From the NCBI GenBank assembly GCA_015657435.1, contig JADLKH010000004.1, positions 519,589 to 532,012 of the forward strand: DNA of 12,424 nucleotides, given 5' to 3'. A program made the translations under genes and the position numbers. Shown here in pieces: positions 1 to 9,427 of this stretch; positions within the stretch are counted from its first letter, which is position 1, and every line of letters begins with the position of its first letter. Below the pieces are notes generated by a model. The model was not told the origin of the DNA. It saw only the letters and a program-made list of their open reading frames with translations, and ran no database searches. Origin of the DNA: Synergistales bacterium. Its GTDB lineage: Bacteria; Synergistota; Synergistia; Synergistales; 79-D21.

Positions 1-1212
1 CCCCGTGGCGTTGCCCAGCGAAGCCTGCCCGGCCAGCACGGCGTCTCCCGTGATGGCCCCGCCCCAGGTGGCCCAGTCGATCCCCGCGTTGTTGAGCTTC
101 GTCATGTTGACCTCGGCGATGAGACCTCTCAGGAAGACCTGCTTGGACTGGATGTCCAGTTTCTGGATGATCGCCTCGACGTTCCGGGCGGTCGCGTCCT
201 CCGCCACGAAGATCAGGCTGTTCGTGCCGGGGTCCGCAACGACGCTGCTTGGGAGCGCGCCTTTCTGGTCCGGCTGGAGTTTGGCCGCGGTGGAAAGGAT
301 CGTGCTCAGCTTTTCGGCCATCGTCCGGGCATCGGTGTTCTTCAGGGGAACCACGTGGTACTGACCCGCCCGGGCGGGGATGTCCAGTTCGCGGATGATC
401 TTCATCGCTTCGCCGAAAACGCGTTTTTCCCCCAGGAGGACCAGCTTGCGCGAGGCATCGTCGGGAATGGCGAGCAGGCCGGCCAGGGGAGAACTCGGGT
501 CCTTCGCCATCGCCGTCAGCTGGCCTGCCAGGGCGGACGGCGTCGTGTTCCGTATGTCGACGGCCTTGCTGTTCTTGAGGCTGTCCGCCGCGTCAAGGGC
601 GTTGATGACCCCCAGAGCTTTCTGGATCGCCGTCGCCTTACCCATGAGGAGGATCTTCGCGCCGCTGGCCATGGGGGCGACCCCCACTTCGCCGCTCATC
701 GCGGCCTTCAGTCCGTCGGCCACGAACGGCGCCGAAACGTAATCCAGCGGAACGATCTGAGTGACGAAGCTCTCGCCGAATCCCGGGCCGACCCGTCCCT
801 TGCGGACAGCGTAATCGGTGCTCTGCCCCTTGGAGGCCGGAACCACCTTGCTGTAGGTTCCCGTCCTCTGGAGCGAAAGCCCGTTCATCTCCAGGACGGA
901 GAGCATCGCCTGGCGTGCTTCCCCGAGGCTGAGGGCTCTCGGGGATACAACGGTGACGGTCCCCTTTACGGTCGGGTCGATAAGGATGTTCTCCCGGAGC
1001 ACCTCCGACATGAAGCGGATGAAGGTTCCCAGATCCAGATCCCGGAAGTTGAACTGGACTGACCCCGAAGCCCGCATGGCTCTGGCCGCCTCCACCAGCC
1101 CGGCTTCATCCTGGGGGGTCTCGGCACGGCAGGGTGTTTTGAAGGCGAATCCGACGGTCATGACCGCCAGGATCGTGAGGAATAGGAAGAACCGGAATCT
1201 TGCGTGCAGCAT
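1..1212 (-). CDS. gspD: T2SS secretin GspD, N-terminal 404 residues (partial, runs off left edge)
   Basis: This is the outer-membrane secretin of the type II secretion system, the channel through which folded proteins leave the periplasm. The frame is open from the ATG at 1212 to the window edge. Residues 5-30 look like a signal peptide (basic start, hydrophobic core, cut near CRA|ETP). Residues about 50-128 form the N0 domain (VQFNFRDLDL, then VTVVSP). N1-N3-type repeats follow, for example VVPLKNTDA near 287-295 and the TNSLIF strand near 330-335. The secretin core begins near 358 (QVFLRGLIAEV) and is cut off by the edge. A GGAGGGG Shine-Dalgarno lies just upstream of the ATG. The gene starts 13 nt after the gspI stop and is the last T2SS gene visible. 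The plus-strand reading frames across it are shadows. Confidence 0.93.
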   Translation of the reverse strand, partial: MLHARFRFFLFLTILAVMTVGFAFKTPCRAETPQDEAGLVEAARAMRASGSVQFNFRDLDLGTFIRFMSEVLRENILIDPTVKGTVTVVSPRALSLGEARQAMLSVLEMNGLSLQRTGTYSKVVPASKGQSTDYAVRKGRVGPGFGESFVTQIVPLDYVSAPFVADGLKAAMSGEVGVAPMASGAKILLMGKATAIQKALGVINALDAADSLKNSKAVDIRNTTPSALAGQLTAMAKDPSSPLAGLLAIPDDASRKLVLLGEKRVFGEAMKIIRELDIPARAGQYHVVPLKNTDARTMAEKLSTILSTAAKLQPDQKGALPSSVVADPGTNSLIFVAEDATARNVEAIIQKLDIQSKQVFLRGLIAEVNMTKLNNAGIDWATWGGAITGDAVLAGQASLGNATG

Positions 1213-1225
1213 GGGAACCCCTCCC

Positions 1226-1567
1226 TCAGGGAAGACTCAATTCGATGGAACGGGACTTGGACCTGACCGAAAGGATACGGTACCGGAGGCTCCATCGGTC
1301 GTTCAGGACAGGCCTCGACTGGCTTCGGGTCTCCCAGGAGAGGTCGCCGCTCGATCCGTTGTCCGGTGTCTTTTCGTAGAGCAGGTCAAGGCGCAGGCGG
1401 GAAACTTCCTCGACGAAAAGCCTTTGTTGCCGGGCCTCGGCCAGGGCCCGTTCCGACTGGATGATCAGCCTCAGGGATCCGGCTCCGGCAAGGCCCATGA
1501 TCGCCACGGCCACCAAAACCTCCAGAAGGGTGAATCCCGCCGATCGGAATTCCGGTCTTCCCATCAT
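1226..1567 (-). CDS. gspI: T2SS minor pseudopilin GspI
   Basis: A 113-residue minor pseudopilin. It carries a class III prepilin leader cut by the prepilin peptidase at SAG|FTLLEVLVAVAIMG (Gly11 at -1, Phe12 at +1, Glu16 at +5), followed by one N-terminal hydrophobic helix. The length, the short globular part and the WETRS...WSLRYRI pattern match GspI better than GspH or GspG. With GspJ and GspK it should form the tip of the pseudopilus. The start ATG overlaps the gspC stop in an ATGA junction, so the two are translationally coupled. A second ATG follows immediately. GspI usually sits with H, J and K; here it is between gspC and gspD, away from J and K. A different minor pseudopilin type is possible but less likely. 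Confidence 0.8.
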   Translation of the reverse strand: MMGRPEFRSAGFTLLEVLVAVAIMGLAGAGSLRLIIQSERALAEARQQRLFVEEVSRLRLDLLYEKTPDNGSSGDLSWETRSQSRPVLNDRWSLRYRILSVRSKSRSIELSLP

Positions 1568-2445
1568 TTTACCGAGTAGGCGACCTGGGAATCCGCTCCG
1601 TCACGCAAGAAGGAAACGACGAACCGATCGCTGTTCAGCAGTGAATTCATGGCGTTGACGATATCCGCTGTCGTCCGGATGGGGATGTCGTTCAGGGAGT
1701 GGATGACGTCCCCGGACCGGACCCCCATGGCGAAAAGCAGGCTGTCCCTGTGCAGCCACTGAGCCTCGATGCCCTGGGAGGAGCCGTCTTCGCCCATTTT
1801 CGGGCGCAGACGGACCCGGTTCAGTTCCTGATAGGGATCCATCAGCAGCTTGTTGATCACGTTCCTCTCGATCGTTCCGTCCTGGCCGCCGGAAGGGGGA
1901 GAGATCCCGCTTTTCGGGTCGAAGGCGGCCTTCGGTTCGCGCCGCGAGGGGAAAGAGGGCGCCGGGGCGAAGGCGGGTGCGGCTCCGCCGACTCCCGCGT
2001 AAAGCACGTCGAGCGTGCGCGTCCGGGTTCCCGCAACGAGGAAAACGCGGGTTCCCTCGACTTTCCTGAGCGTTTCGCCTCCGAGTTTCTGACCGACCAG
2101 GACCGCACGGAAAGTTCCGTTCAGCCCGAAGAGGGCGCCCAGCGGGGGAAAGGTTCCGAGCAGTCGCGTTTCCGTGGACGCGTTTCCCGCCGGGTTAAGG
2201 TCTCCTTCCAGCGAGAAGAGGTTTCCGCGGGAAAAGGACTCGAGATCCCGGTCGGCGGCCGTCGCCGGCTCGAAACGGAGGGACGCCGGAGCGGGGAGGG
2301 CCGCCTGATCGAGGCGCCGGCTTTGGATGCGTGCGTCCAAAACCAGCCCAAGAAGACGGGCGGCAACAACGCCGCAGAAGAAGGTGATGAGGAGGCCAGA
2401 CAGGATTTTCCAGGGGAAGGTCCGGTTCGGCATGGACAGTTTCAT
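1564..2445 (-). CDS. gspC: T2SS inner-membrane clamp protein GspC with C-terminal PDZ domain
   Basis: GspC links the inner-membrane platform to the secretin and takes part in cargo selection. The 293-residue protein has a short cytoplasmic start and one membrane helix at about 13-36. An HR-like domain lies at about 70-150 (FSRGNLFSL, then ETRLLGTF and GTRVFLVAGT), followed by a Pro/Ala-rich linker. A PDZ domain spans about 192-293, with ERNVINKLL, the GVRSGDVIHSLNDIPI binding loop and FVVSFLRDG. I chose the ATG at 2445 over the one at 2463. It forms an ATGA overlap with the gspN stop, as at the neighbouring junctions, and a GGAGGTG Shine-Dalgarno lies 9 nt upstream. The gene is followed by gspI with the same overlap. 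Confidence 0.9.
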   Translation of the reverse strand: MKLSMPNRTFPWKILSGLLITFFCGVVAARLLGLVLDARIQSRRLDQAALPAPASLRFEPATAADRDLESFSRGNLFSLEGDLNPAGNASTETRLLGTFPPLGALFGLNGTFRAVLVGQKLGGETLRKVEGTRVFLVAGTRTRTLDVLYAGVGGAAPAFAPAPSFPSRREPKAAFDPKSGISPPSGGQDGTIERNVINKLLMDPYQELNRVRLRPKMGEDGSSQGIEAQWLHRDSLLFAMGVRSGDVIHSLNDIPIRTTADIVNAMNSLLNSDRFVVSFLRDGADSQVAYSVK

Positions 2446-3040
2446 GGACGTTTCCACCTCCACTGTCCTTTGCCCTCCGGCCTCAGTCCCTCGGAAAGCC
2501 CGAGCAGGTTGAGGCTTGCAGAGAGCGACTCGGGGGCCCTGATCGCCAGGTCGACGACCGAAAGCCGCCGGGTCTCGGGCGACCAGGCGAGCTTCCCGGA
2601 AACGGCCAGGTCCCCTTCGACGAGGATCGGGTCGAACCGGGTTTCCGTCCTGCCGAGCGACAGGTTTCCCCTCATCCCGAGAGCTTCAGCGGGCTGTTTC
2701 CCGGAACCGTCAGGGTCGCGGCGGGGCTGTCGATTTCCAGCGTGGGGGAGAGAGTGAATAGCGAAGCCGCGGTCTTGAGTTCCAGGTTGACCGTGGGAGC
2801 CTTGAGGGCGCCGAGCAGGCTCGTTGCGGCAAGATCCCGGATCTCCACCCGGGGAGGCAGGTGAGAGAGGATCGCCGCAGACCCGTAATCGAGCTTCATC
2901 CCCATCGTGGAGGCTTTGCGGGAGGCTTCGGCCAATACGGTTTCCGCCAGGCGGTCCCAGGGGCATGCCCAGACCAGGCCCAGAAGAAAGGCGCTAGCGA
3001 AGGCAACGGCTCTCGTCAGGCTTTTCGGAGGCGTTTTCAT
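2442..3040 (-). CDS. gspN: T2SS GspN, apparently split by a one-base deletion
   Basis: GspN is an inner-membrane/periplasmic T2SS component of uncertain role, found in a subset of systems. From the ATG at 3040 (ATGA overlap with the gspM stop) the frame gives 122 residues. There is a hydrophobic segment at about 10-26, then a beta-rich periplasmic part (LDYGSAAILSHLPPRVEIRDL). It stops at 2672-2674 (PLKLSG*). The next frame takes over at once with MRGNLSLGRTETRF and continues for 77 residues to a TGA at 2442-2444 that overlaps the gspC start. Restoring one base near 2676-2678 gives an exact 600-nt frame of 199 residues. I read this as one gene with an indel, most likely a sequence error. Real truncation is possible. 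The GspN name rests on position and general fold pattern, with low sequence certainty. Confidence 0.72.
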
Positions 3041-3555
3041 GGCTGTCCTCCCAGAAGGAGGCTGAGGGAAAGCTTTCTCTTCCCGTCGACCGGCAAGGCC
3101 CGGATTTCTGCGGCCGTGACGGAAAGGCGGATCCTTTTCAGTTCGCGGACAAGCGCGAGCATTTCATTCTGGTCCAGGCCCTCGAGGCCCAGGGAAATCC
3201 CGCGGTTCGAGCTTGATAGGTTTTTCAGCCGGTTTTTCATCTTCAACCGATCGACGGTCTCCGAGGCGGCCGTTAAGGGGTCCGCTGTCGTTTGCGCCGA
3301 GCCGCCTCCCTGTCGTTGGGAAAGGGGAATGGTCCTGTAGGCCTGGGCGATTTCGGTCAATCCGGCGAATCGCGAGGCCTGAAGCGGGATGCGGGCGGAC
3401 AGGTCGATCGCGCTGAAATGGAGAAAAAGGCCGATTCCCCAGAGGAGAGGGACCATGGCCGTCATCAGAAGAATCTTTCGGCCTTCGGGAGTTCCCCGGT
3501 TTTCCAGGAACCATTCCCGAACCTGAAGGGCGATGTCTTTCCAGCGGGTCGTCAT
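3037..3555 (-). CDS. gspM: T2SS inner-membrane protein GspM
   Basis: A 172-residue bitopic protein of the T2SS inner-membrane platform, expected to dimerise with GspL. It has a short cytoplasmic N-terminus (MTTRWKDIALQVREW), one membrane helix at about 29-49 (LLMTAMVPLLWGIGLFLHF), then a periplasmic helix rich in Gln/Ser and a ferredoxin-like alpha/beta part ending in KLSLSLLLGG. The start at 3555 was chosen because it is the first ATG before the membrane helix, and because the gspL stop would overlap it (ATGA) if one base were restored. The open frame extends upstream to 3726, but that part lies inside gspL. The stop overlaps gspN by ATGA. Confidence 0.85.
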   Translation of the reverse strand: MTTRWKDIALQVREWFLENRGTPEGRKILLMTAMVPLLWGIGLFLHFSAIDLSARIPLQASRFAGLTEIAQAYRTIPLSQRQGGGSAQTTADPLTAASETVDRLKMKNRLKNLSSSNRGISLGLEGLDQNEMLALVRELKRIRLSVTAAEIRALPVDGKRKLSLSLLLGGQP

Positions 3556-4627
3556 CGGCCATCCCCCTGACCGTGACCTTGAACCGAAACTGGCCTCCGG
3601 GCAGCTGCTGCAGGTCTTCCAGGGAGGATTCTTCGGCTTCCAGCGCGTGCTGGAAGGCCCGGATGGCCTCCACGGAAGGTCCTTTGCCGGTGATTTCCGT
3701 TTGCCTTTCGGAGAAACGGAGAGCATCGAGCACGATTCCCGAACCGGCGTTCTGCCCTGCCCTCCCCAGCATGGCCAGGGCGCCTGCCAGGCTTTTCGTT
3801 TCGTCCGTTCCCAGGGCTGCGGCCAGGCGCGCTTTCGCCTGGCTCAGCGGGTCCCGGATCGGCCCCGATGGGTCGAAAACCTCCCGGTAAAGGCGGACCG
3901 ACGCCTCCTCGTAACCGGCAAGCCGGGTTTTGGCCGAAAGAAGGGCGATTCCGGCAGAGGCGTCGAAAAGAAGGCCGAGGACCAGGAGTGCGGAAAGCAC
4001 GGGTTTCAGGATCGAGGAGAAGCTTTCAAGCCGGAGGGCCGACTCCCTCTGCCCGGAGGATAGATCGAGCGCGGCGAGGGCCGGGAAGGCGGCCCAGGTC
4101 CGGCGGGCTTCGGCTTCCAGTTGTTCCGCGGCTTCCGGGTTCCCCCGGCTGTCCAGCAGGAGGACATCGGTTTCCGTCCCCGAAGAGCGTCGGATCCACT
4201 CGACGACTTCCTGGGGTTCCCCTTCCGAACGGGGCGACCAGCGGTAGAGGACGGGGATTCCGTCGCGCCAGAGGACGCAGGCCACGTTCTCCTCATCGGC
4301 CCAGACGCCAAGCCCGGTCCCCGTGTCCGGGGCAAGGGCGAGGGGGGCGGGGAACAGCCGGCTTTTTCCCGCAGGTTCTTCGTCGGGTTCGGCCGTTTTG
4401 GAAAAAACCAGAGCGAAGCCTCTGGAATGATCCCTGTCGCGATGGAGGACCACCGGGTGAAGGCGCGACCGAGCGTCCGCCTCTCCCATCAGGGCGGACA
4501 GCTGCAGCGAGAGGGCCTGCCGGATTCGGGCGGGATCACTGAAGGGAAAAGAGAACGGGTGAAAGGACAATTCCCGCGGAGTGACGAAACGGCAAGGCCG
4601 GTTTTCTCCCGGCCAGACGGGTTTCAT
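3552..4627 (-). CDS. gspL: T2SS inner-membrane protein GspL, with apparent one-base deletion at its 3' end
   Basis: GspL couples the cytoplasmic ATPase GspE to the pseudopilus machinery through GspM. A cytoplasmic actin-like domain fills residues 1 to about 205. One membrane helix lies at about 208-231 (LKPVLSALLVLGLLFDASAG), followed by a periplasmic part. It ends in a ferredoxin-like fold with GGQFRFKVTVRG. As given, the frame does not stop there but runs on to 3164 through gspM, adding about 130 Arg/Pro-rich residues of shadow-like composition. One extra G in the G5 run (minus strand; C5 at 3563-3567) would give a TGA at 3552-3554 overlapping the gspM ATG, and a 358-residue protein of normal length. 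I annotate that version. A TAGGAG Shine-Dalgarno precedes the ATG, 6 nt after the gspK stop. Confidence 0.82.
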
Positions 4628-4633
4628 GGTCTC

Positions 4634-5563
4634 CTACATCTCCTTCCAGGCGACGACCGTGCATCGTCCCGATCGCTTCAGGAGCACGGCTTCGAAACGA
4701 CGCACGAGATTCCCCTTGCGTACCTCGATGTCCGCCAGAAAATGCGAGCTCGTGAAGGACAAAAGCCCCGACACCCTGGGCTGGAGGCCCTGCGGAAAAC
4801 CCGGCAAGCCGGCGAGGTCACCCCATCCGGAGAGCGGTTCCTTGCGCCGCTTTTCGACGATCTCGCGAACCACTGCGGGGGTGAGGGTTTCGTCGAGCAG
4901 CTCCAGAACCTCCGGAACGGCGACGTTCACGTTGATTTTGCCGTCGCTGCGGACCGTTAAAAAACGCTCAAGGCCCACGGGGTATTTCTCATTGTTTCCG
5001 GTAAGAAGGTTTTCGTCAATGCCGGGGAAAAGCCGGATCTCATCAATCGCGGCGGGCGGGCGGTTAATGAAGGAGTCCTCTTCCGTCCCCCCCGCGCGGG
5101 GCGTCCGGTCGGCATCCAGGAAATCCAGCAACCCGGCGGCCAGTTCCGGTCTGCGGACTTTTTCCCATAGCCGTTCCCAGGGTTTCTCCAGCTCTGTCCG
5201 CAGGGTGCTTCCGTCGGGCAGGAAAAGGGCGTTGACCGGAAGGGCGCCGTTTTGAGGGGTCAGCCGGACGACCACGGAAAAGTCTTCTCCGATGGGGAGG
5301 GGCCAGGCCCCGAACCAGGGTTCCAAAAGCGAATCGGCGTCGTTCGTGTCCAGGACGAGTCCCCTTTGGATCTCGTGAACGGCCGTTTCTGCCAGGCTGC
5401 GGGCCTGGAGGGAAAACGCGAGCGCCGAAGCCTTCCTGAGCTCCATCCTCGCGAACCAGGCGAAGGCAAGGGCTCCGGTCACGAGGAGCGTCACGGACAA
5501 TAGAACGGCGACAAGGACGAATCCCGGCCTTTTGGATCTAGAAGGCTGCGAGGGTGTCCACAT
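4634..5563 (-). CDS. gspK: T2SS minor pseudopilin GspK
   Basis: GspK is the large minor pseudopilin at the pseudopilus tip, which starts assembly with GspI and GspJ. This 309-residue protein has a prepilin leader cut at KRPG|FVLVAVLLSV (Gly14|Phe15). It has Ala rather than Glu at +5, as expected for GspK, which lacks the Glu of other pseudopilins. The family segments LLDFLDADRTPRAGGTEED and INVNVAVPEVL are clear, as is the helical inserted domain typical of GspK. I start it at the ATG at 5563 (MWTPSQPS), which gives a short basic leader and overlaps the end of gspJ by 26 nt. The longer frame to 5815 lies inside gspJ. A GGGGA about 12 nt upstream could serve as the ribosome site. Confidence 0.9.
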   Translation of the reverse strand: MWTPSQPSRSKRPGFVLVAVLLSVTLLVTGALAFAWFARMELRKASALAFSLQARSLAETAVHEIQRGLVLDTNDADSLLEPWFGAWPLPIGEDFSVVVRLTPQNGALPVNALFLPDGSTLRTELEKPWERLWEKVRRPELAAGLLDFLDADRTPRAGGTEEDSFINRPPAAIDEIRLFPGIDENLLTGNNEKYPVGLERFLTVRSDGKINVNVAVPEVLELLDETLTPAVVREIVEKRRKEPLSGWGDLAGLPGFPQGLQPRVSGLLSFTSSHFLADIEVRKGNLVRRFEAVLLKRSGRCTVVAWKEM

Positions 5564-6152
5564 GGACCACGCTTTTCCCCTTTCGCCCGAGCTCGATGGA
5601 GATGCCTGCGGGGAGAACTCCGGAATAATCCTCCACCCACTCCCGGCCGTCGAAGACCCGGACGGCGAAACGGTCGGCGTTTTTGACCAGCAGGGTCCCC
5701 CCTGCCGGATCAAGCCGCTCCGCGAGGACCTCCTCCGGCCGCATTCCCGGAAGCGTCCAGCGGTAAAGTCCCGGCCTGACCGCTTCCCTGAAGGGGCCCG
5801 GCTCGAGAACCGCAAAAGCTTCCGTCGCCGCCGGCTGCCCGCGGGTCAGGGGCGCCCCGGTCCACAGAAGCAGGACATCGAGCCTCCGGTCTCCGGGGAG
5901 GCTGCGGCGGATGGACCGTAATGGGGTTTCCCCGCCCTGCGGGAGGGTTTGCCTGCAATCCGAGGCGATGGAGCGGGCCGCCGCCGAAAGGACGGTTTCC
6001 GCGGCGTAGTCGTTCTGGACGGCTTCGAGACGGATGACAAGAGCCACAAGCGGACCGACGGCGATCGTGGCTACAAGGCCGATCAGGCCGATGGCCACGA
6101 GGACCTCGATCAGGGTGAAGGCCGGATTGCCGCAGCGACGTTGCGTTCTCAT
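5538..6152 (-). CDS. gspJ: T2SS minor pseudopilin GspJ
   Basis: A 204-residue minor pseudopilin with the N-terminal helix FTLIEVLVAIGLIGL, Glu16 at +5, and a globular part with late strands and the motif GREWVEDYSG. Length and position directly before gspK fit GspJ. The leader is MRTQRRCGNPA|F: the residue before the cut is Ala instead of the usual Gly, which prepilin peptidases accept less well. It is the first T2SS gene in this stretch and starts only about 33 nt past the subtilase terminator. The start (ATG at 6152) has a poor Shine-Dalgarno. The only -10-like box (TAAAAT, minus strand, 6159-6164) is so close that the transcript would be nearly leaderless. Expression by read-through from the subtilase gene is an alternative. 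Confidence 0.85.
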   Translation of the reverse strand: MRTQRRCGNPAFTLIEVLVAIGLIGLVATIAVGPLVALVIRLEAVQNDYAAETVLSAAARSIASDCRQTLPQGGETPLRSIRRSLPGDRRLDVLLLWTGAPLTRGQPAATEAFAVLEPGPFREAVRPGLYRWTLPGMRPEEVLAERLDPAGGTLLVKNADRFAVRVFDGREWVEDYSGVLPAGISIELGRKGKSVVHVDTLAAF

Positions 6153-6222: not shown

Positions 6223-7983
6223 CTAAAGTCGGCTCTTCTTCCTGCATCCTGCCGCGAGCGGCACCAGCAGGAACAGGGCGAATGCGGGCAGCGCGGCTCC
6301 GCTGCAGCCACCGCCGCCTCCTCCCCCGGATGGGGCCGGAGGCTCTTCCGCGAGATCGACCGTCACGGTCAGGTTCCCGTCCGGGAACGCGAAGACGTAG
6401 GTGCAGTCCGCCAACGAGGGGACCGACCATGTCGCGGAAGCGATTCCGTCTCCGGCGGCCTGGTCGAAGCCGGTGCCGTTGTCCCGGAGGGTGACGGTTC
6501 CGTAGGAAGCTCCGTTCTGGGTGATCGAAACGGAGAGATCCCCCAGGGATTCTTCACCCGAGATGTTCAGGGCGGCAAGGTCCAGGGATGCCCCCTGTTC
6601 CAGGTCCAGGCTGTTCGCGATGGGACGCAGTCGCGAACGAACCGGCTGCCCGCTTCCGGTCAGGGCTCCGAAGGTCCCGTCCCCGCCCGCCAGGAGGCGT
6701 CGTCCCGTGATGGTTTTCGAGGCCAGTCCGGACAGGGGCGTTCCGGTCGAAAGCAGGCGATTTTTCAGAGCGATCCAGTCCCGGTCCGGGTCCTGGGCTT
6801 TCATCAGGGCCAGCACGCCGGTCACATGGGGGGCGGCCATGGAGGTTCCGCTCAGTGTCGAATAGTCGGATCCGGGCAGGCTTCCCCAATAGGTGCTCAG
6901 GATGTTCTTGCCGGGGGCCCCCAGGTGCACGGTCCGGCGTCCGTAATTTGATGCCTCGTTGGAGTTGAAGACGGCCAGTGAATCGTTTTCGTCCGTTGCC
7001 GCGACCGACAGCACGTTCGGCCTGAAAAGGCCGGCCGGGTAGAACGGCGTCAGGTCGTTGTCGGCGTCGTTATTGCCCGCTGCGGCGACGAAGAGGATCC
7101 CCGCCGCTCCCGCGTCCCCGATGGCCTCGTTCAGGAAGGCGTCTTCGCTGACGGGGCCGCCCAGCGAGGCGTTGATGGCCACGACCGGCAGGTTCTTGCC
7201 TGTCCGGAGGGCCGTGACGTAGTCGATCCCCTCGACGAGGTCGCTCGTATAGAAGCTGCTTCCCTCATTGGCCTTGACCGTGATGATCCCGATGTGCCAG
7301 TTCAGACCGGACACGCCCACTCCGTTGTTGCCCACGGCTCCGATGATGCCGGAGACGTGGGTGCCGTGGCCGACGTTGTCCTGGATATCCTGAGCCAGGC
7401 TCGGCGAAGCGGCGGAATTGACCCCGTGGACGTCGTCCACGAAGCCGTTGCCGTCGTCGTCCAGGCCGTTGCCGGGGATTTCTCCGGGATTGGTCCAGAG
7501 GTTGCCGGCCAGGTCGGGATGGCTGGTGTCGATTCCCGTGTCGAGAACGGCAACCAAGACGTCCGCGCTGCCCACGGTAAGGTCCCATGCGGCCGGAGCC
7601 CCGATTTTACCCGGTCCCCACTGGCTCGCATAGCTGGGGTCGTTCGGGACGAGCGCGGTATGGTAGATGTAGTTGGGCTGGGCGAAGAGAACCCCTTCCT
7701 GCCCCGTGAGGGCCGATATCGCCGCCTGGACGGTTGTACCGCTCCGGATTTTCAGCCGGGCGATCCCCATCCGTGCCGTTCCGTCCGCTTCCAGTACGGA
7801 AAGCGCAACGGGCGACGATGAAAGGATCGGATCGATCCGGGCTCCCGGTTTCAGGCGGACGAGGATTTCGCCGGGGACGAAGGACTCTCCCTGCGGAAGA
7901 CCCTCCGTCAACTCCGCGGCGAAAAGGAGAAAAAGGCCGCAAAGAACTGCCGCTGCGGGAATCCACGAAGCAGGACGTTTCAT
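6223..7983 (-). CDS. Secreted subtilisin-like serine protease (S8) with Cys-type C-terminal sorting signal
   Basis: A 586-residue preproprotease. Residues 1-29 form a signal peptide (MKRP, then a hydrophobic core). About 36-110 is an I9-like propeptide (GEILVRLKPGA to QPNYIYH). The S8 catalytic domain is about 125-430 and holds Asp148 (AVLDTGID), His206 (GHGTHVSG), oxyanion Asn304 (AAAGNN) and Ser381 (SGTSMAAP). An acidic loop (GNGLDDDGNGFVDD, 171-184) between Asp and His looks calcium-binding. Residues 445-548 are a beta-sandwich-like domain. The end is Ser-Gly7-Cys560, a hydrophobic helix and RKKSRL. The frame stays open to 8865, but I start at 7983 because the signal peptide begins there and an AGAGGAGGT Shine-Dalgarno lies 7 nt upstream. 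It is probably exported and held at the surface. Substrate is unknown. It is upstream of the T2SS operon and divergent from the Lgt-like and CPBP genes. Confidence 0.92.
   Translation of the reverse strand: MKRPASWIPAAAVLCGLFLLFAAELTEGLPQGESFVPGEILVRLKPGARIDPILSSSPVALSVLEADGTARMGIARLKIRSGTTVQAAISALTGQEGVLFAQPNYIYHTALVPNDPSYASQWGPGKIGAPAAWDLTVGSADVLVAVLDTGIDTSHPDLAGNLWTNPGEIPGNGLDDDGNGFVDDVHGVNSAASPSLAQDIQDNVGHGTHVSGIIGAVGNNGVGVSGLNWHIGIITVKANEGSSFYTSDLVEGIDYVTALRTGKNLPVVAINASLGGPVSEDAFLNEAIGDAGAAGILFVAAAGNNDADNDLTPFYPAGLFRPNVLSVAATDENDSLAVFNSNEASNYGRRTVHLGAPGKNILSTYWGSLPGSDYSTLSGTSMAAPHVTGVLALMKAQDPDRDWIALKNRLLSTGTPLSGLASKTITGRRLLAGGDGTFGALTGSGQPVRSRLRPIANSLDLEQGASLDLAALNISGEESLGDLSVSITQNGASYGTVTLRDNGTGFDQAAGDGIASATWSVPSLADCTYVFAFPDGNLTVTVDLAEEPPAPSGGGGGGGCSGAALPAFALFLLVPLAAGCRKKSRL
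6226..6327 (-). other. C-terminal sorting signal of the subtilase (Gly7-Cys-Ser-Gly / hydrophobic / RKK)
   Basis: Residues 553-586 of the protease have the three-part layout of prokaryotic C-terminal sorting domains: a short motif (seven Gly, then CSG), about 18 hydrophobic residues, and a basic end (RKKSR). An invariant Cys after a Gly run is the mark of the MYXO-, JDVT-, CGP- and Synergist-CTERM group. This one most resembles Synergist-CTERM. Published computational work links that group to glutamic intramembrane proteases of the CPBP family, and one is encoded at 8894..9427. Cys560 (codon 6304-6306) would be the processed or modified residue. Confidence 0.75.
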
Positions 7984-7990
7984 GCGAGAG

Positions 7991-7999
7991 ACCTCCTCT
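7991..7999 (-). promoter_or_regulatory. Strong Shine-Dalgarno of the subtilase gene
   Basis: The minus strand reads AGAGGAGGT, 7 nt before the ATG at 7983. This fixes the start and rules out the much longer upstream open frame. Confidence 0.85.
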
Positions 8000-8027
8000 G
8001 GGAATCTTTCTGGTTCCTTTGTTTCCC

Positions 8028-8057
8028 AGTATAGCGTTCTTCGGGAAAAGGTTACAA
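8028..8057 (-). promoter_or_regulatory. Candidate sigma-70-type promoter for the subtilase gene
   Basis: On the minus strand, TTGTAA (8052-8057) is followed after 18 nt by TATACT (8028-8033). These match the consensus boxes at 4 of 6 and 5 of 6 positions. It lies about 45 nt before the start codon, in the 129-nt divergent gap. Called by eye only. Confidence 0.45.
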
Positions 8058-8062
8058 TAACC
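8050..8062. promoter_or_regulatory. Small inverted repeat in the divergent promoter region, possible operator
   Basis: GGTTA-CAA-TAACC is a 13-nt inverted repeat. It covers the -35-like box of the subtilase promoter and contains a plus-strand TACAAT (8053-8058) that could be the -10 of the Lgt-like gene, for which no good -35 box is visible. A regulator bound here could act on both transcripts. The short arms mean chance is possible. Confidence 0.3.
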
Positions 8063-8112
8063 GCGTCGGGGATGGCCGACGCCCCGAATCCGTCCGCAGG
8101 GAGGCCGATGCA

Positions 8113-8897
8113 TTGCACCCAGTCCTTTTCAGGATCGGACACGTCGTCATCGACACCTATACCGTCGTCTGGACCCTGTCTCTGGCTCTCTCCCTCGCGT
8201 GGACGAGAAGCCGCTCCAGCCGCCTGTACGGGCTTGATGACGAGGATGCGCGGAGAGCCCTTTTCTGGGGGTTCCTCGGAATCCTGGCCGGTGCGCGCCT
8301 CGGCAACATCCTGATGGAATGGCCGACCTATGCGGCGAATCCCGGGAAACTGCTGCGCCCCTGGGAAGGGGGGCTCTCGGCCCTCCCGGCCGTTATCGGC
8401 GGAGGGCTTGCCGCCCTGGCGGTCCTCCACAGAAGGAAAATTCCCGTGTGGCGGCTGGCCGAGGCCGCCAGCCTCCCGGCCGCAGCTCTCGTCGCAGCGG
8501 GGCGATGGGGGTGTTTCTTCAACGGTTGCTGTTACGGGAAAGTCTCCACCGCTTCCTGGGCGATCCGGTTCCCCTTCGACCCGATCGGGGTGACCCGGCA
8601 TGCGACCGAGCTTTACGAGTCGTTTTCGGCGCTTTTCCTTTTCGCTTTCCTGTGGGTGATCGAAAGAAAGATCGGGACAGGCCGCCGAAAGCGGCAGGCC
8701 TCGATTCTCTGGCCCCTCTTCCTGGCCGGCTACGGAGGGATCCGGCTGGTCGTGGACCGTTTCAGGGGGATGTGGACCTTGGAACGCCCCGGGCCCTGGC
8801 CTGGAGCCTGGGGGTCTTCCTGCTTGGGGCAGTCTGGTTTTCAGTCTCCGCCTTCCGCCCGCCAAAACCTGAAGAGGAGAGGGGGAAAGACCGGTGA
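8113..8897 (+). CDS. lgt: Divergent Lgt-like prolipoprotein diacylglyceryl transferase, with apparent one-base deletion
   Basis: Lgt transfers diacylglycerol from phosphatidylglycerol to the lipobox Cys of prolipoproteins in the inner membrane. This homologue keeps the family layout: HPVLFRIG start, Tyr16, GARLGNILMEWP, WEGG, RWGCFFNGCCYGK, TRHATELYES, and GYGGIRLVVD. It lacks residues I match to E. coli His103 (Leu91), Asn146 (Cys134) and Glu151 (Cys139), so activity may differ. It starts at TTG 8113 with GGGAGG upstream. As given, the frame misses the last helix and runs on to 9000. One extra G in the run at 8765-8769 restores FRGDVDLG, a final membrane helix (LAWSLGVFLLGAVWF) and a TGA at 8895-8897 overlapping the next start, giving 261 residues. 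It is coupled to the CPBP protease gene. It could be the housekeeping Lgt or a specialised paralogue. Confidence 0.8.
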
Positions 8898-9427
8898 GTC
8901 CCGGGATGCTCGGGCCCCTGTTCGCCGTGGCCGCGATGCTTTACGGGCCCTACCTCTGGGCCTGGGTCAGGAAAGAGCCGATGGGCGCCTACGGACTTGA
9001 GCTTCGTCCCTCACGCAGGGGGCTGTTCGAGGCGACGGCCCTCGCCGCCCTGACCCTTGTCCCGCTGACGGCCATGGTGTTCGCGGGCTGGCCTGGGCGA
9101 ACCTGGCCCCGAGACCTGCCTTTCTCGGCGGTCATGGCATTTGCCTCTTCCGGCCTCGTGGCGGCCGTGTCCGAAGAAGTCTTTTTCAGAGGCTGGGTTC
9201 AGACTCTGCTGACCCGATTTTTCCATCCCGCCCCGGCAATCGTCGGCGCGTCGGCCCTTTTTGCCCTTTCCCACCTGGTGTTCCGCTCCGATCCCTTCTA
9301 CCTTTTGACGTTCTTCCCGGGCCTGGTGATGGGGTGGCTCCGTTCGAGGCACGGTGACATCGCCCCGGCGATCCTCTACCACCTGCTGGGCAATCTCTGG
9401 GCGATCTGGTTTTTTCCCCATCCCTGA
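8894..9427 (+). CDS. CPBP-family glutamic intramembrane endopeptidase, candidate C-terminal sorting enzyme
   Basis: A compact 177-residue multi-pass membrane protein related to Rce1-type CAAX proteases. All three core motifs are present: Glu94-Glu95 with Arg99 (SEEVFFRG), Phe123 to His127 (FALSH), and His163 to Asn167 (HLLGN). Four or more hydrophobic segments are visible. The start is the GTG at 8894 inside a GTGA overlap with the Lgt-like gene stop, with purine-rich GAGAGGGGGAAAG upstream. In-frame ATG codons follow at residues 5 and 16. Family members called myxosortases (MrtX, MrtC, MrtP) and their relatives such as MrtS are predicted to process Cys-containing C-terminal signals. The subtilase 0.9 kb away has one, so it is a likely substrate. 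The MrtS assignment is my inference. Other roles known for CPBP proteins, such as bacteriocin immunity, fit the context less well. Confidence 0.88.
   Translation: MSPGMLGPLFAVAAMLYGPYLWAWVRKEPMGAYGLELRPSRRGLFEATALAALTLVPLTAMVFAGWPGRTWPRDLPFSAVMAFASSGLVAAVSEEVFFRGWVQTLLTRFFHPAPAIVGASALFALSHLVFRSDPFYLLTFFPGLVMGWLRSRHGDIAPAILYHLLGNLWAIWFFPHP

Follow-up and report, generated by a model that had tools for sequence, protein, structure and literature searches.

Proteins with a Cys-containing C-terminal sorting signal are known from Myxococcus xanthus, where the CPBP-type protease myxosortase (MrtX) acts on MYXO-CTERM tails and the type II secretion system (T2SS) leads to the cell surface (PMC11980579, cited here and below from the accessible part of the paper). 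According to that part, an Lgt-like acyltransferase acting before cleavage is predicted for MYXO-CTERM proteins, Lgt being the favoured candidate on the grounds that MrtX is functional in E. coli; the enzyme itself is called unidentified there. Another pair, the Synerg-CTERM signal (TIGR04564) and its glutamic intramembrane protease MrtS (NF040589), bears family names already. Here, we describe a stretch of 12,424 nucleotides (G000:C2:519589-532012; the window) from a Synergistales bacterium, in which a secreted subtilase with a Synerg-CTERM-like tail, an Lgt-like gene, mrtS and a T2SS operon lie side by side. With a probability of roughly 0.66, the locus is a surface-anchoring module in which the Lgt-like enzyme would lipidate the tail cysteine, MrtS would cut and the T2SS would export the product.

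The subtilase comprises 586 amino acids, and its Asp, His and Ser motifs begin at residues 148, 205 and 379. Its C-terminus reads GGGGGGGC including Cys560, followed by the hydrophobic SGAALPAFALFLLVPLAAGC and the basic end RKKSRL, and displays the Cys motif, hydrophobic stretch and basic end of the Synerg-CTERM anatomy. Against TIGR04564 (cut-off 22.5), the tail reached 19.3 bits with the whole protein and 23.6 bits, above the cut-off, in a six-frame search of the genome. The same model gave 13 matches at E ≤ 10 in the window genome, nine above the cut-off, two below it with the same anatomy and two rejected on inspection. The CPBP protein matched PF02517 (69.9 bits, cut-off 22.4) and contains the MrtS motifs EExxxR (EEVFFR 94-99) and HxxxN (HLLGN 163-167). 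Judged by profiles and motifs, it is MrtS and forms a known pair with the Synerg-CTERM-like tail.

An earlier note on this DNA had described a secreted subtilase with a Gly7-Cys tail divergent from Lgt-family and CPBP genes, which profile matches and motifs bear out. Likewise confirmed was its T2SS operon directly downstream on the same strand: reading from the subtilase along the minus strand, we found a pseudopilin, GspK, GspL (a weak match), GspC, a second pseudopilin and GspD. T2SS membership was evident for GspD, GspC, GspK and the pseudopilins; GspC scored below its cut-off, and GspD scored above it as the whole gene (G000:C2:518935-520641; TIGR02517, 390.3 bits). Of the surface-anchoring parts, the protease and the Cys tail correspond to families that already have names, NF040589 and TIGR04564.

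According to the mechanism we propose, the protease would be exported via Sec, and its C-terminal helix would hold it in the inner membrane, the tail Cys facing the periplasm. To this Cys, the Lgt-like enzyme would transfer a diacylglyceryl group from a phospholipid; MrtS would cleave just after the lipidated residue, freeing the helix, and the T2SS would then bring the protein with its lipidated tail to the cell surface. In LspA-containing genomes, the same enzyme may serve N-terminal lipoproteins, too. Gene anatomy, family membership, co-occurrence, gene linkage and kept or replaced active-site positions were observed directly; lipid transfer, substrate and order of steps are our interpretation of them, and the presumed cleavage site is taken from the published MYXO-CTERM model (PMC11980579).

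Co-occurrence was followed in 185 genomes of the phylum, of which 141 had an Lgt match (all counted), 132 a MrtS match (the 125 above the cut-off counted), 108 an LspA match, 149 a Synerg-CTERM match at E ≤ 1 (136 strong ones counted) and 175 a GspD match; a T2SS was counted only at E ≤ 1e-60 (128 genomes), because weaker GspD matches may be other secretins. A high-completeness set comprised 118 genomes of the window's order that are at least 90% complete, with contamination unfiltered. Lgt was present in all MrtS-positive (87/87), all strong-GspD-positive (88/88) and all LspA-positive genomes (72/72) of this set. GspD, Lgt, MrtS and LspA occurred together in 70 genomes, 24 had none of them, and 15 had GspD, Lgt and MrtS without LspA. 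The nine others had Lgt only (G027, G029, G030, G031), GspD and Lgt (G125, G143, G145) or, in two cases, Lgt, MrtS and LspA; LspA without MrtS was found in no genome of the set. Therefore, the distribution of Lgt agrees more closely with that of MrtS and the T2SS than with that of LspA. At the level of genera (58, any member counting), 30 had all four, 13 none, eight all except LspA and seven another pattern. Among all 185 genomes, Lgt and MrtS were found together in 120, Lgt only in 21, MrtS only in five and neither in 39. The MrtS/Synerg-CTERM system is present across the order.

Gene linkage points in the same direction. In three genera, lgt lies by mrtS or T2SS genes rather than at yidC-jag. 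In the window's genus (three loci), it is located between the cargo gene and mrtS, and Lgt and MrtS are adjacent in G000, G007 and G009. The gene order of the window is also found, within reach of those loci, in L002 (UBA6083) and L003 (bin97), whose Lgt proteins are 71% and 65% identical to that of the window; since the order is kept in both, the arrangement is more than chance. In genus g35 (four loci), as seen in G126, lgt is followed by a T2SS operon (pseudopilin, K, L, C, D, E, F), whose far end carries gspG and mrtS; G128 and G129 resemble G126 by distance, and G125 has GspD 7 kb off. In G140 and G149, lgt adjoins gspG and mrtS is divergent; in G142, which provided a third locus from this genus, lgt is found at yidC. 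Genomes with both genes carried lgt and mrtS on one contig in 22 of 120 cases, with start-to-start distances below 1 kb in five (two genera) and below 15 kb in nine (four genera). The binomial expectation, which assumes random placement in closed genomes and uses distance limits picked post hoc, amounts, for 40 genera, to about 0.03 and 0.5 genera, respectively.

In G077, lgt and mrtS are 2.4 kb apart from start to start, and the interval from mrtS to lgt (L081 3145-4997) holds an unnamed gene and a weakly DsbD-like gene (30.6 bits, cut-off 330), whose product might keep the tail Cys reduced. The Lgt-like gene of genus g8 (L066-L068; G029, G030, G031) is intact and stands in the order yidC-jag-lgt-htrA. 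The remaining loci away from yidC and jag belong to G043 (htrA only, mrtS not near), G169 (contig edge) and G120b (a second copy). At the Lgt loci of G001 and G003, yidC and jag were not seen within short flanks.

The Lgt-like protein is a clear member of PF01790 and could be aligned to the E. coli Lgt structure 5AZB. The AlphaFold2 (AF2) model of its relative P0002 (mean pLDDT 88.8) had 5AZB as best match (TM 0.78). The model for canonical Lgt, TIGR00544 (cut-off 118.9), gave 108 bits for the window protein, whose frame is cut by a frameshift, and 48.8, 46.5, 43.8 and 93.9 bits for four intact relatives outside the window's genus, so that all five fell short of it. From the 136 genomes of the order that had an Lgt match, we chose 41 main-copy sequences and aligned them with two sequences of the sister group and a fragment of the E. 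coli protein. R143, R239 and R246 were invariant in the order (41/41), Y26 was kept in 37 and Y235 in 38 sequences, and Glu243 was replaced by Asp in 39. The His103 column of the HGGL motif contained no His in any of the 41 sequences (Leu in the window; His within three positions in three rows), and positions 146, 151 and 152, occupied by Asn, Glu and Leu in E. coli, were Cys throughout. In E. coli, the tested variants of H103, E151 and R143 are inactive (PMC4728403), as is N146A (PMC8689077), both according to the accessible parts of these papers. The Gly-Cys-Cys signature also occurs beyond the phylum, in P0034 (Acidobacteriota) and in L206 and L207 (Planctomycetota), and therefore by itself marks neither a C-terminal function nor necessarily new chemistry. 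Two second Lgt copies were seen, L116 (G039) and L075 (G120), one with Gly-Cys-Cys and without His103, the other near-canonical with His103.

LspA was detected neither in the window genome (86% complete) nor in G007 (56%), and G009 (93%) gave a match at E 0.04 only. A second search, with a profile made from LspA sequences of the order itself, covered 31 of the 77 genomes negative for LspA, including all 15 with GspD, Lgt and MrtS. Nothing credible appeared in 30 of the 31; G038 contained a contig-edge fragment and was counted as LspA-positive. All five positive controls were detected, four of them members of the profile and one (G133) not. Besides the gene in the window, no second PF01790 gene was found in the 86% complete window genome. 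The second, canonical lgt envisaged by the earlier note was thus not encountered, and normal lipoprotein activity of the single copy is doubtful because no LspA was found in that genome either.

N-terminal lipoproteins seem rare as judged from 400-kb samples of five genomes of the phylum, each a fraction of its genome. A strict lipobox was present in 10 of 1686 open reading frames (ORFs), with 4/332 in G000, 2/282 in G020, 3/365 in G029, 1/370 in G010 and 0/337 in G004, and most of the matching proteins look cytoplasmic or membrane-bound by eye. The strict rule was set after a looser one (8, 7, 7, 4 and 1 matches) had given mostly cytoplasmic and membrane proteins, and only the strict rule was applied to the control, a 100-kb stretch of E. 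coli K-12. There, 5 of 90 ORFs matched, namely YajI, AcrA, YajG and YbaY, which are annotated lipoproteins, and CyoA, which we take to be one. Lipoproteins make up about 2% of E. coli proteins overall; the contrast is inflated because the E. coli stretch is lipoprotein-rich. In the sample of G004 (L313-L332), which has LspA and a high-scoring Lgt, the 337 ORFs without a strict lipobox included two C-terminal tails of the SSGC/SAGC type. Two candidate marker proteins were discarded. For Bmp (PF02608), 14 of 30 loci were unusable (wrong frame) and the others lacked a convincing lipobox; it is not diagnostic because this held with and without LspA. MetQ (PF03180) matched in 27 of 44 genomes, and 26 of 30 loci were readable, with plain signal peptides in both groups.

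Several observations weigh against the anchoring module proposed here. The co-occurrence counts are uncorrected for kinship, with the genus counts as sole control, and many genomes are incomplete bins, some with contamination of up to 9%. The three genomes of genus g8 (99% complete) have Lgt without MrtS, LspA, strong GspD or strong Synerg-CTERM, and G145 has Lgt with GspD only. G006 (91% complete, window's genus) has three Synerg-CTERM matches (best E 1e-6) and neither Lgt nor MrtS; in total, seven of the 136 strong-Synerg-CTERM genomes lack a detected Lgt, the six besides G006 being less than 90% complete, as do five MrtS-positive genomes, all less than 90% complete. None of Lgt, MrtS and LspA was found in G006 or in G008, another member of this genus; the Synerg-CTERM matches of G006 are possibly relics, or the partner genes may fall into an assembly gap. 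LspA without MrtS occurs in 11 of the 185 genomes. Five of these are the sister group (G001-G005, another order), in which no MrtS-like match, if there is one at all, reaches the cut-off, LspA is present and Lgt scores are far higher; its two aligned Lgt sequences are canonical at the key positions. Moreover, yidC and/or jag adjoin lgt in 28 of 43 loci read, which looks like a housekeeping site. Replacement of His103, Glu151 and Asn146 means that activity could be lost or changed, and the lgt of the window itself is frameshifted. With regard to the earlier note's question of whether the lgt-like/CPBP pair also occurs widely in genomes without Cys-type C-terminal signals, seven high-completeness genomes have Lgt without MrtS; three contain strong Synerg-CTERM matches and four do not, two of which have one weak match each.

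Alternatively, the protein could be an ordinary Lgt that serves N-terminal lipoproteins only, with signal peptides that, where LspA is missing, stay uncut or are cut by another protease; its co-occurrence with MrtS would then stem from envelope functions having been lost together in genomes that underwent reduction. Membership in PF01790, the Lgt fold of the modelled relative, yidC-jag as the usual site, Lgt in every LspA-positive high-completeness genome, the MrtS-free genus g8 and a single protein with a plausible lipobox among the 400 kb sampled from the window genome are all in favor. We nevertheless regard this explanation as unlikely, as LspA is missing from 15 high-completeness genomes that contain Lgt, MrtS and GspD, no genome of this set has LspA while lacking MrtS, and lgt adjoins mrtS or T2SS genes in several genera. 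Furthermore, lipobox matches are few even in the LspA-containing G020 and G004, and the readable MetQ-like proteins have plain signal peptides; a MetQ search of four genomes from the window's genus gave no match. The enzyme might also act on the tail Cys by another chemistry, e.g. S-acylation via its own cysteines, or use another donor lipid. The missing His and the three invariant Cys residues would fit such a role by extrapolation, but the three invariant arginines and the Gly-Cys-Cys relatives outside the phylum, which show that new chemistry is not implied, make it quite improbable.

A third explanation would be decay of the module in this strain, with lgt turned into a pseudogene. The PF01790 match of the window protein stops at residue 219 (around position 8770); the remainder is encoded in another frame, which ends with a transmembrane helix and a stop at 8897, so that a one-frame translation loses the last helix. 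The mrtS gene starts with GTG at 8894. The earlier note had read the resulting 107-nt overlap as an overlapping gene pair, but this is an effect of the frameshift and not a gene feature, because L002, L003 and P0015 have one intact frame: lgt of L002 and L003 overlaps mrtS by four nucleotides (ATGA and GTGA, respectively), and P0015 is an intact, near-identical protein of 261 amino acids with three differences from the window Lgt. RNA folding at the frameshift yielded no sign of programmed frameshifting (z -0.30). Given the intact P0015, the position of the frame break at a G run and an overlong GspL frame in the same window, which points to erroneous indels in this assembly, decay is very improbable.

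The anchoring module stays our preferred interpretation, and the features of its locus are listed in the following table. The window genome measures 2.68 Mb on six contigs, and its closest named relatives, judged by MrtS, are Synergistaceae metagenome-assembled genomes. The GspL frame (window 3037-4627) has 487 amino acids compared to 406 in G126 and overlaps widely with the next frame; this excess length suggests another small indel in the assembly. The GspJ-like protein matched TIGR01711 (gspJ) at E 0.03 at best. Beyond mrtS, citrate lyase genes follow on the minus strand.

Features of the window with positions, strand and supporting matches
Feature	Position	Strand	Basis
GspD, T2SS secretin, cut by window edge	1..1212	-	TIGR02517, 205.8 bits on partial protein
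T2SS pseudopilin	1226..1567	-	PF07963 (N_methyl), 30 bits, cut-off 21.2
GspC	1564..2463	-	NF041616 (T2SS_C_SYNERG), 179.4 bits, below cut-off 200
GspL, frame probably overlong	3164..4627	-	PF12693 (GspL_C), 26.2 bits, below cut-off 29.6
GspK	4634..5815	-	PF03934, 24.8 bits, cut-off 24.2
GspJ-like minor pseudopilin	5538..6152	-	TIGR02532, 21.1 bits, cut-off 16.3
Secreted subtilase, Synerg-CTERM-like tail (Cys560), putative cargo	6223..7983	-	PF00082, 164.1 bits; TIGR04564; motifs
Lgt-like enzyme, TTG start at 8113, frameshift near 8770	8113..8897	+	PF01790, 146.6 bits, cut-off 24.9
MrtS, Synerg-CTERM glutamic intramembrane protease	8894..9427	+	NF040589, 217.6 bits, cut-off 130

We conclude from these comparisons that a known sorting system (MrtS/Synerg-CTERM/T2SS) has a well supported candidate lipid-transfer enzyme. 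Throughout the order, one particular gene is associated with the protease and the T2SS, also in genomes where LspA was not detected; these would allow a C-terminal role to be studied separately from ordinary lipoproteins. If the predicted transfer takes place, Lgt, which is an antibiotic target, would gain a second, topologically inverted substrate class. A more far-reaching version, to which we give rather less than an even chance, is that Lgt has become a transferase dedicated to C-terminal lipidation in this order, functioning with three invariant active-site Cys residues and no His103 base, the N-terminal pathway having largely faded. The target Cys would then precede a transmembrane helix, the reverse of the topology of a lipoprotein signal peptide, and Lgt-MrtS would mirror Lgt-LspA. 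In this case, Lgt paralogs without His103 in Myxococcota would become candidates for the MYXO-CTERM acyltransferase. Four Myxococcota genomes contained one to four Lgt-family matches, two of those in G190 being pieces of one gene. Paralogs in G187, G185 and G190 (L216, L218 and L219) lack His103 by eye and carry GRxGC..VHDHPG instead of Gly-Cys-Cys; a strict DNA pattern for this motif matched in 40 of 187 Myxococcota genomes (reversed control 0), a count that says nothing on function. These paralogs may be regarded as possible candidates for that acyltransferase.

The earlier note's proposal of an Lgt-like partner for T2SS-linked CPBP cargo gains from co-occurrence, linkage, genomes with lgt and mrtS but no LspA, and the scarcity of lipoboxes; lipidation itself stands as a prediction. 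Its impression that such a partner had not been described holds in part. No Lgt partner of MrtS was found among the entries listed from the open-licence literature (mostly abstracts, a scope outside which the original MrtS description lies), and a title/abstract-type search of that literature found nothing joining MYXO-CTERM with a diacylglyceryl transferase, but the Lgt-like acyltransferase for MYXO-CTERM is predicted in the accessible part of PMC11980579. As far as the literature searched shows, the lipidation hypothesis was thus already in print, and the partner gene and the gene-level evidence are new.

Among the known systems, Synerg-CTERM/MrtS is matched in the Cys tail, the hydrophobic stretch, the basic end and a protease above its curated cut-off; the models TIGR04564 and NF040589, unlike the locus described here, name no lipid-transferring partner. 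With E. coli Lgt (5AZB/5AZC; PMC4728403, accessible part), the enzyme shares the fold, as seen in the model of its relative, as well as Arg143, Arg239, Arg246 and mostly Tyr235; it differs in the absent His103, the three Cys replacements, the Asp mostly found for Glu243 and the LspA partner missing in many genomes. In the rhombosortase/GlyGly-CTERM system of Vibrio cholerae, as far as the descriptions at hand go, an intramembrane protease trims a C-terminal signal of proteins secreted by the T2SS as well, but rhombosortase is a rhomboid serine protease. To our knowledge, the GlyGly-CTERM signal contains no Cys. The two-component system for N-acylation of lipoproteins in Staphylococcus aureus (PMC7387801, accessible part) acts on N-terminal lipoproteins, in contrast to the present case. 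One of its components is a CPBP-family protein, and the likeness lies in the tie of such a protein to lipoproteins. Finally, MYXO-CTERM/MrtX shares the CPBP protease, the Cys tail and the T2SS route with the Synergistales locus, which, unlike the system presented in the accessible part of PMC11980579, links a specific Lgt-like gene to protease and T2SS.

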